Source of the DNA: a bacterium
GTDB taxonomy: Bacteria > JAHJDO01
Assembly: GCA_030652805.1 (NCBI GenBank)
Contig: JAUSPT010000056.1
Span: forward strand, 1-61,040
Direction: 5' to 3'
Length of the DNA stretch: 61,040 bases
Below are positions 17,900 through 20,836 of the stretch, in pieces. A program made the position numbers and the translations under genes. The notes under the pieces were generated by a model. That model made no database searches. It was not told the origin of the DNA and saw only the letters and a list, made by a program, of their open reading frames with translations. Each line of letters opens with the position of its first letter. Positions within the stretch are counted from its first letter, which is position 1.

Positions 17900-18331
17900 C
17901 TTATAAATTTTTTCATCATATTGACATATTCTTTATGGTTTGGTATCGTTTCGACGTGAAGAAATGCGTTTTTAAAAATATTGGAATTGCCTTTTTAATT
18001 CCCATAGGAATTTATCTCCTTTTTATTTCTGGCATACTTAATTTTATTTTGCGTATATTAACCATTTTGGGGCATATTCTTGAACAAATGACTTGGTAAT
18101 TTTAGTTTTCATAATTTAAATGGATTTCTTTTTTCTTTTCTGCTTTGTCAAAATGTACCGTTGTTAATTTTTTTATTGCTGTTTTATCTTCAGCAATTCC
18201 ACTTTTCCGTCTTTTTTTTGTGAGCCAAAGGCGTGGCAATCTCATAGACTGCTTCGTTTCTTACACTCCTCGCAATGACGTTGTGTTGTTTCTTTTATTA
18301 AATAAAAATGTGTTGATGATAAACTGCAACT
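17900..18331. other. 432-base intergenic stretch between oppF and the HEPN gene
   Basis: No long gene is present. It is very AT-rich with many T-runs. On the minus strand it holds two small open frames. One spans 18044-18112 (22 codons, reading SFVQEYAPKWLIYAK near its end). The other spans 17916-18005 (29 codons) and has AAGGAG ten bases before its ATG. One copy of the interspersed repeat lies at 18243-18279. Either small frame could be a gene remnant, a leader peptide or chance. Confidence 0.4.
18243..18279. repeat. short interspersed repeat, copy A
   Basis: 37 bases matching copy B (19230-19266) at 33 positions in the same orientation, sharing the core CTCCTCGCAATGAC. The 'GTCATTGCGAGGAGCG...' type sequence (minus strand) recurs as a dispersed repeat in many environmental bacterial genomes. 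The copies sit on either side of the HEPN gene. Confidence 0.75.
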
Positions 18332-19162
18332 TCACTTGACATCCTTTATCGCTTTTAGGCAAGATCTATTGTGTAACATTGCAAATACTGAGAAGGAATC
18401 TTTAGCAAGTTGAAAAGCTATATTTGCGTGTCTTTCACCTATCACGTATGGGTTGCCATGTATAAGTTTATTTCGAGCCTTTCTTAGCTCTTCCCAATTT
18501 CCACAGAAATTTTCAGCATCGATTTTATTTAAGACAGAGCTAAACTTACTGCCATTCAATCTTTTGAAAATTTTGAATTTGGCTGGTATGCTTCCTGCTT
18601 CGTTTAGCACAATGTCTATTACTTCAGAAGATGTCTCTCTGCATTCTAACATCTCGTATAGAAATTCGTTAAGTAAATTCTCAAGAAGGGTGCATGTCAG
18701 AATAACCGCAGAGATATACTCGTCAACTCTTTTTGGATATGTTTGGAGTAGAATTGTATAGATTTCTTTTGCTTGCTTGTTTGAAACAGTAAATTCCCTA
18801 CAAATTATATTCAACATTTTCTCATAAGAGTTAACACTCAATTCTTTATGAATGTCATTAAGCTGATGTTTATTTATTTTAATTTTTGTTTTATTCCGTA
18901 TTTCCTTAAGCGTATTCTCAATGTTGTTATTAGACGCTTGGTATCCTTTGCGACAAAAGCCTTGTACTATTTCAAAAAGCGTAATTGCATTCAGATTTGG
19001 AAACATTTCTGGAGAAGTCCCTTTGCAACCACAATGAGAGCATAGTGTATTTGTATTTGTAATACTATCATCTTGAAGAAATCCGCACTTTGAACATTTG
19101 CAATAACAAAGAGTAATTGCAAGATCATCAAAAGAAACCAATTCTCTATTATCTAAGCTCAT
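18332..19162 (-). CDS. zinc-ribbon plus HEPN-like domain protein, putative defence ribonuclease
   Basis: 276 residues. The N-terminus has cysteines at 19, 21, 23 and 26 and again at 41, 44 and 46, consistent with one or two zinc-binding knuckles. The middle is helical. The C-terminal helix carries R230-NKLI-H235, fitting the R-x4-H motif of HEPN domains, many of which are RNases in toxin-antitoxin, abortive infection and CRISPR systems. I do not recognise a named family for the whole protein. It lies next to an AbiE toxin-antitoxin pair and between two interspersed repeats, supporting a defence role by context. A non-catalytic nucleic-acid-binding role is also possible. Confidence 0.6.
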   Translation of the reverse strand: MSLDNRELVSFDDLAITLCYCKCSKCGFLQDDSITNTNTLCSHCGCKGTSPEMFPNLNAITLFEIVQGFCRKGYQASNNNIENTLKEIRNKTKIKINKHQLNDIHKELSVNSYEKMLNIICREFTVSNKQAKEIYTILLQTYPKRVDEYISAVILTCTLLENLLNEFLYEMLECRETSSEVIDIVLNEAGSIPAKFKIFKRLNGSKFSSVLNKIDAENFCGNWEELRKARNKLIHGNPYVIGERHANIAFQLAKDSFSVFAMLHNRSCLKAIKDVK

Positions 19163-19229
19163 AACAGATTTTTTTCTATTTTAGCGTTGATAAACTTAAA
19201 TTTTTCTTGTCTATTTTCTAACACGATTA

Positions 19230-19266
19230 CATAGATTGCTTCGTCGCTTACGCTCCTCGCAATGAC
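19230..19266. repeat. short interspersed repeat, copy B
   Basis: Second copy of the 37-base repeat, same orientation as copy A about 990 bases away, with four mismatches. It lies between the HEPN gene and the AbiEii gene. Confidence 0.75.
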
Positions 19267-19289
19267 TTTCTTTCATCTTAATTCTTCCA

Positions 19290-20123
19290 TTATCCTGAAA
19301 CAGTTAAATGTTTCTTAATCATTTCTTTGTAGTTTTGGCAGTAGTTCTCTATAAAACGGCTGTCTTCAAAAAGAGGCAGAAGGTCTTCTTTTAGATAGGA
19401 TGGGGTTATTTTTTCGGTTTTTTCCAGCAGCATTAGATGTATTTTACTCATATCGTCAGTATTTAAAACATCTTTTAACCTTTCTAAATCAGGTTTGATC
19501 CCTTTTTGAAGAAACCAGAGAATGTCATAATAATCTCTGCCTTTAAAAGTTATTTTATCTCCTTTCCCTTTTTTGAAAGTTCTTTTCAGGATAGCAATGA
19601 TTTTTGAAGACATGAGGGTTTCCAGAGAGTAGGTTCGCATTAAAAAATTAAGATTAAATTTTGCTATAGGAATAAACTCGGTTTGATAATATCTTGAAAT
19701 ATTTTGAGCAATCTCTACTTTTACATAAAGCTTATTGCTCTCAGGCTTTTTGGCTGCTCCAAGCGTATAAAGAATAGGAAACTTCAGGTAAATCTTTTTT
19801 TGCTTTCCACGGATACTGGCTTCTATTTTTGGAAAACGCCGGCTCTTTCTGAAGTAATCAAGAATATCTTCGGTCAAATTTTCTTTGTCAATTTCCTTTC
19901 CCCATTCCAAATCTAAATCCAAGTCCTCAGAAAGACGATTTAGGCTATAACCAATCCTTAAAGCGCTACCTCCTGTAAAAGCTAAGTCTTTGCCGTAAGA
20001 AGAATTAAAAATAAAATCCAGTACATAAAATTGAAGGACCTCTTTTAAAAAATTGCGAATAATATCATTAGACAATCCCTGTCTTTTTTTTTCTTCAACT
20101 AAATTTTTAAGAATTTCTTCCAT
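19290..20123 (-). CDS. AbiEii/AbiGii-type nucleotidyltransferase toxin
   Basis: 277 residues. 'FTGGSALRIGY' followed by 'SEDLDLDLEW' (GGS at 51-53, acidic motif at 65-72) is the nucleotidyltransferase signature of the AbiEii toxin family. Members studied elsewhere transfer nucleotides to tRNA or similar targets and halt growth. The gene overlaps the upstream AbiEi-like antitoxin gene by 17 bases, the normal order for this type IV toxin-antitoxin system. The conserved acidic residues look intact, so an active toxin is expected. Confidence 0.87.
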   Translation of the reverse strand: MEEILKNLVEEKKRQGLSNDIIRNFLKEVLQFYVLDFIFNSSYGKDLAFTGGSALRIGYSLNRLSEDLDLDLEWGKEIDKENLTEDILDYFRKSRRFPKIEASIRGKQKKIYLKFPILYTLGAAKKPESNKLYVKVEIAQNISRYYQTEFIPIAKFNLNFLMRTYSLETLMSSKIIAILKRTFKKGKGDKITFKGRDYYDILWFLQKGIKPDLERLKDVLNTDDMSKIHLMLLEKTEKITPSYLKEDLLPLFEDSRFIENYCQNYKEMIKKHLTVSG

Positions 20124-20757
20124 TATAAATATTCCTTTCTAATATCTTAGATATTTTTTCCATTTTCTTTGACATGGATTTTGAGACATATTTCTTAAAT
20201 AATAAGAAATCGCTAAAAGAAAAATTTTCCCAATTAATTCTTAAGCTCTCTAAAATTTCAGTGTTAAGATCTCCCAGATTTCTTTTTAAATAAAGAAAAT
20301 CAAAAAGGGCTTTAGCTTTGGTAGCTACAAAGTATATATTCTGATAAAAAGAAACTTCTTTAAATCCAAAATAAAGAGCCTCTTTAATGTTTGAATATTT
20401 ATATGTTCCCAATGAATTCTGATAGGAGCGGCCTGTTTTTAACGTAATAGATGTCAAAGGATAGGTGGCTTCAGTTAAAAGGTTATATTTTGACAGAACA
20501 TATTCTAAACTTAAGTAAGAGGGAAATTTTAATTTTGAAGCGATAAACTCTTTAAATCCCGTTTTGTTCGGTTCTTTAAGATAGTATACATCAGTGGTAT
20601 ATAATCCCTTTTTTAGTTTAGCGATCCGCTCATTTTCCAAAGAGCGTTTTATTCTCTCGTTAAGAGCAAATTCTAAACCCTTAAAATAAATTCTAATATT
20701 TTTTTTGCTAAAACATGGCATTTCTTCAAATGGTTCAAAAATATCCGCTTTTGTCAT
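20107..20757 (-). CDS. AbiEi-family antitoxin/transcriptional regulator
   Basis: 216 residues. The segment 'LKKGLYT' followed by 'PSYLSLEYVLSKYNLL' and 'TEATYPLTSITLKTGR' matches AbiEi-type antitoxins, which bind their own promoter and neutralise AbiEii without direct contact. The N-terminal 60 residues are consistent with a divergent winged-helix region. A palindrome just upstream of the start is a plausible operator. The toxin gene overlaps its 3' end, which indicates coupled translation. Confidence 0.82.
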   Translation of the reverse strand: MTKADIFEPFEEMPCFSKKNIRIYFKGLEFALNERIKRSLENERIAKLKKGLYTTDVYYLKEPNKTGFKEFIASKLKFPSYLSLEYVLSKYNLLTEATYPLTSITLKTGRSYQNSLGTYKYSNIKEALYFGFKEVSFYQNIYFVATKAKALFDFLYLKRNLGDLNTEILESLRINWENFSFSDFLLFKKYVSKSMSKKMEKISKILERNIYNGRNS

Positions 20758-20769
20758 TTTGTTTCACTT

Positions 20770-20790
20770 TTAGTATGTATTATGTACTAA
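20770..20790 (-). promoter_or_regulatory. palindromic candidate operator of the AbiE pair
   Basis: The inverted repeat TTAGTA...TACTAA (arms 20770-20775 and 20785-20790, 9-base centre) lies 13 bases upstream of the AbiEi-like start. The AT-rich DNA around it includes TACATAAT, which could serve as a -10 element. AbiEi antitoxins are known to autorepress, so an operator is a reasonable reading. Confidence 0.45.
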
Positions 20791-20836
20791 TTCTAAAATA
20801 AAAACACAATAAAAACAAGTTATTATTATGTAATTT

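Follow-up and report, generated by a model that had tools for sequence, protein, structure and literature searches.

Gene content of the insertion between oppF and oppD

The window, that is, the whole stretch of 61,040 nucleotides analyzed here (contig JAUSPT010000056.1 of assembly GCA_030652805.1, from a bacterium of the GTDB lineage JAHJDO01), carries an insertion between oppF and oppD that contains a gene for a predicted zinc-ribbon and HEPN protein together with an abiEi-abiEii pair (Table 1). The open reading frame of the former was intact, with 276 codons and an ATG start. The neighboring genes had been described as a type IV toxin-antitoxin pair in an earlier note made from the letters of this DNA, and profile matches to AbiEii in Pfam and to AbiEi in PADLOC confirmed that identification. 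In three sister genomes (G001, G002, and G004), oppD and oppF were nearly adjacent, such that the site is empty, and GC content was 0.31 in the insertion versus 0.39 in the window. The insertion carrying the zinc-ribbon HEPN gene is very probably recent.

The gene was also bracketed by two 40-nt direct repeats that were 88% identical, as expected from its reported position between repeats. One further copy was present in the 232 kb of genome examined, and the repeat was rare elsewhere in that sample; a hairpin in the flanking repeat was no better than in shuffles. Within the reading frame, both features that had been proposed for the protein were present, namely two cysteine clusters (residues 19, 21, 23, and 26, and residues 41, 44, and 46) and an R-x4-H motif at residues 230-235, which formed part of RNKLIHG (residues 230-236). 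Because 21% of shuffled versions of the protein contained a bare R-x4-H, that pattern is weak evidence; the longer RN-x3-HG occurred in 0.06% of the shuffles.

Table 1. Features of the insertion and of the predicted zinc-ribbon HEPN gene, in window coordinates.
Feature	Position	Strand	Basis
2.93-kb insertion between oppF and oppD with zinc-ribbon HEPN gene, abiEi, and abiEii	17903..20836		Empty site in sisters; GC
Dispersed repeat, copy downstream of gene	18243..18282	+	GATTGCTTCGTCGCTTACGCTCCTCGCAATGAC type
Predicted zinc-ribbon and HEPN protein, 276 aa	18332..19162	-	Open reading frame; full-length homologue E=3e-27
Predicted C-terminal HEPN domain, residues 146-267	18362..18727	-	Consensus match to PF18735, E=1.9e-5; helical bundle
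R230-N-K-L-I-H235, predicted RNase active site	18458..18475	-	R/N/H invariant in 4/4 members; also in truncated fifth copy
Predicted N-terminal zinc ribbon, residues 19-53, CxxC (23/26) ... CxxC (41/44)	19004..19108	-	Four Cys invariant in 4/4 members
Dispersed repeat, copy upstream of gene	19230..19269	+	GATTGCTTCGTCGCTTACGCTCCTCGCAATGAC type
AbiEii-type nucleotidyltransferase toxin gene	19290..20123	-	Pfam AbiEii, E=8.4e-25
AbiEi-type antitoxin gene	20107..20757	-	PADLOC AbiEi, E=2.5e-40

Homologues and distribution

The window protein had no significant match in Pfam, NCBIfam, PADLOC, PHROGs, or PDB sequences, with the best PADLOC matches being unconvincing (E=0.014 for the window protein and 0.001 for the homologue L003). 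Three divergent homologues with 24-26% identity to the window protein were nonetheless recovered from scattered bacterial genomes, alongside one truncated copy. When 385 genomes sampled across the domain were searched in all six frames, a full-length homologue of 280 aa turned up in genome G218 (26% identity, E=3e-27), as did a shorter protein of 191 aa in G119 (E=2.9e-6). The third, of 204 aa (L017), came from a search of a collection of 84,980 genomes with a degenerate DNA pattern derived from the protein motif F-[YCF]-x-[DNEK]-W-x2-[hydrophobic]-x3-R-N-x2-[hydrophobic]-H, which also returned JAUVLC010000097.1 (9,078 bases), the contig carrying the G119 protein. The truncated fifth copy, at a contig end in G256, had the R-N-x3-H motif and was kept separate from the conservation counts, which refer to four members: the window, G218, G119, and L017 proteins. 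Matches at L004 and L005, and the pattern matches L014, L016, and L018, were rejected as unrelated, and L006, as weak a match as the rejected L004 and L005, was left out of the reading.

Among five genomes of the window's phylum, the gene was present in the window's own genome only. It was not found in approximately 795 genomes of two large phyla, in searches run without a positive control, and the viral, phage, and plasmid collections searched contained no true relatives. The zinc-ribbon HEPN family is very probably rare and recognized by no database model.

Conserved residues, profiles, and predicted structure

Fifteen residues were invariant in all four members: C23, C26, C41, C44, E148, C157, E161, K197, F219, W223, R230, N231, H235, F260, and N265. 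The earlier note had staked its HEPN assignment on conservation of R230 and H235, and both were retained throughout, in the motif versions RNKLIH, RNEFIH, RNKIVH, and RNNFIH. The published HEPN active site consists of an arginine followed by a polar residue, a histidine, and often an upstream acid, a description with which N231 (after R230) and the conserved upstream acid agree.

Since C23, C26, C41, and C44 were the only clustered cysteines conserved, the N-terminal region would form a single CxxC...CxxC ribbon, with two conserved knuckles (C23/C26 and C41/C44) that could supply four cysteine ligands. C19, C21, and C46, which were not conserved in the homologues, were ruled out as zinc ligands. 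The N-terminal family consensus had weak matches to several zinc-ribbon models in Pfam (best, Zn_ribbon_8, E=0.0016), and strands were predicted by AlphaFold at residues 19-23 and 49-53 of the ribbon region. Both short members lack all or part of the middle region (approximately residues 60-140) but keep the ribbon and the C-terminal motif.

Pfam PF18735 (HEPN_RiboL-PSP) was matched by L003 (E=2.8e-4) and by a family HEPN consensus, hand-built from the alignment, that covered profile positions 34-182 of 191; these scores (21.3-25.1 bits) lay below the gathering cut-off of 28.4 bits. The window protein alone matched no HEPN model in Pfam, and L003 had further weak matches to Csx1 and CARF-HEPN models. 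The AlphaFold model from a single sequence was unusable (pLDDT 37), whereas adding the three homologues raised pLDDT to 67 and gave a fairly confident helical bundle at residues 146-267, in which 10-residue mean pLDDT was mostly 73-90. Foldseek searches with the four-sequence model, including its low-confidence middle region, returned chance helical matches, none of them significant, so that assignment of the HEPN fold rests on sequence. Conservation among divergent homologues and the Pfam matches support the zinc ribbon and the HEPN domain with its conserved catalytic motif, and the window gene very probably encodes a HEPN-type RNase with an N-terminal zinc ribbon.

Genomic neighborhoods and mobility

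The gene lies directly downstream of the abiE pair, on the same strand and in the same insertion, and no terminator-like site was found between it and abiEii. This arrangement would fit a third component acting with AbiE, as the earlier note suggested; in such an extended system, the gene would be cotranscribed with the abiE pair, and its product would modulate or carry out the AbiEii response. However, the gene lies 127 bp from abiEii, with a dispersed repeat in between, and no AbiE gene was present at any other homologue locus that was read. Moreover, AbiE has been described as a complete bicistronic system, comprising a winged helix-turn-helix antitoxin and a nucleotidyltransferase toxin (PMC3985639), neither of which the window protein detectably matches; what they share is the insertion. 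We consider a third AbiE component very unlikely, and the adjacency here indicates coinsertion, not a three-gene system.

Defense neighbors were present at two of the four loci, with one of the remaining two at a contig end. At the G218 locus (contig C6), a SIR2_2 gene and a second HEPN-motif gene (L010 5943-8092), the latter with the motif RHKIVH and a match to PF18735 (E=1.5e-5), adjoin each other and lie beside the homologue, a possible small defense cluster. In L017 (2421-3683), the homologue lies together with a RAYT-like (Y1_Tnp) gene inside an rnf operon, splitting rnfC from rnfD; these rnf genes were named by reading of their translations. The G119 homologue was downstream of enolase, near the contig end.

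Two homologues thus sit in or beside housekeeping genes (rnf, and beyond enolase), as might be seen if this were a non-defense HEPN protein that processes or binds RNA. Against such a function stand the location of the window gene on a low-GC insertion and the patchy distribution, with absence from the phylum's other four genomes and the failure to detect the gene in the two large phyla searched, and we regard it as improbable.

The G218 homologue was also bracketed, in this case by copies of another dispersed repeat, in direct orientation and approximately 1.18 kb apart. The copies of this repeat, of approximately 160 bp, are at L010 4456-4581 and 5632-5761, and it occurs in at least six other sampled contigs; since it is frequent in that genome, bracketing by chance is possible there. 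In L017, the RAYT-type transposase gene was 3′ of the homologue, between palindromic repeats. Together these arrangements suggest mobility by repeat-mediated exchange, although bracketed cases number only two. If the bracketing holds, it is a pointer to how solo HEPN effectors move.

Proposed role

We favor, as the probable explanation, a stand-alone zinc-ribbon HEPN endoribonuclease, probably a defense effector, that would stop growth upon infection or stress and is encoded by an accessory gene unrelated to the coinserted AbiE. The predicted C-terminal four-helix HEPN domain would most likely dimerize, bringing two R230-N231-x3-H235 motifs together in a site that would cut RNA without metal ions. 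Together with the variable helical middle region in long members, the zinc ribbon would restrain the enzyme or place it at its RNA or trigger, until infection or another stress led to RNA cleavage and growth arrest. The gene itself would travel independently, here on an insertion that also bears an unrelated AbiE pair. The proposal that the protein is an RNA-targeting immune effector is plausible, and the ribbon may sense or position RNA.

An addiction function would also fit the absence of the insertion from sister genomes: the protein would act as toxin in a toxin-antitoxin or self-inhibited unit, restrained by its ribbon or by an unseen small partner, and the main role of the unit would be to stabilize the insertion rather than to defend against phage. 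HEPN toxins are known in such a role (HEPN/MNT, PMC7641770), but no consistent partner gene was present at the four loci, which makes this unlikely. Extending the favored reading, that of a stand-alone endoribonuclease, the members might constitute a distinct and rare family of single-gene zinc-ribbon HEPN immune nucleases in little-studied phyla, with the ribbon as sensor or RNA dock and the gene moving, independently of AbiE, as cargo flanked by or near short dispersed REP-like repeats; we put this forward tentatively, as a rather doubtful possibility.

These sequences add an unmodeled HEPN family that annotation pipelines have missed, and the conserved ribbon provides a specific, testable hypothesis of sensing or RNA docking.

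Comparison with known HEPN proteins

The nearest profile is that of the RiboL-PSP-HEPN family (PF18735), which is distantly related to AbiF/AbiD (Anantharaman et al. 2013, PMC3710099). The consensus of the family described here aligns over most of that domain, including the R-N-x3-H motif, but falls below the cut-off, lacks the L-PSP domain, and has an N-terminal zinc ribbon instead. The same survey listed zinc ribbons among HEPN fusions (DUF4145, Npun_R5629, and Plim_2023), so the combination is of a known kind. The earlier view that the full architecture matched no known named family is borne out for curated profiles, but fusions of this sort were already on record in 2013. Npun_R5629 (by description alone) and Plim_2023, of the Abi2/Swt1 group, resemble the window protein in combining a zinc ribbon with HEPN in a single chain (PMC3710099). 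In the Planctomyces type of fusion, however, the HEPN domain comes first, followed by two transmembrane helices and then the ribbon, whereas the ribbon of the window protein is N-terminal.

E. coli defense systems have been obtained by functional selection (PMC9519451). In Staphylococcus aureus phage 80alpha, Tha, a single protein of 301 aa, has been demonstrated to be an anti-phage RNase, whose direct or indirect trigger is the tail protein of the infecting phage (PMC11087260). Like the window protein, Tha is approximately 300 aa long with a C-terminal HEPN domain (motif RNSIMH), yet it has no zinc ribbon and no sequence similarity to the window protein beyond the motif. Because Tha is complete as an anti-phage RNase, a single HEPN protein of such size can suffice for this function.
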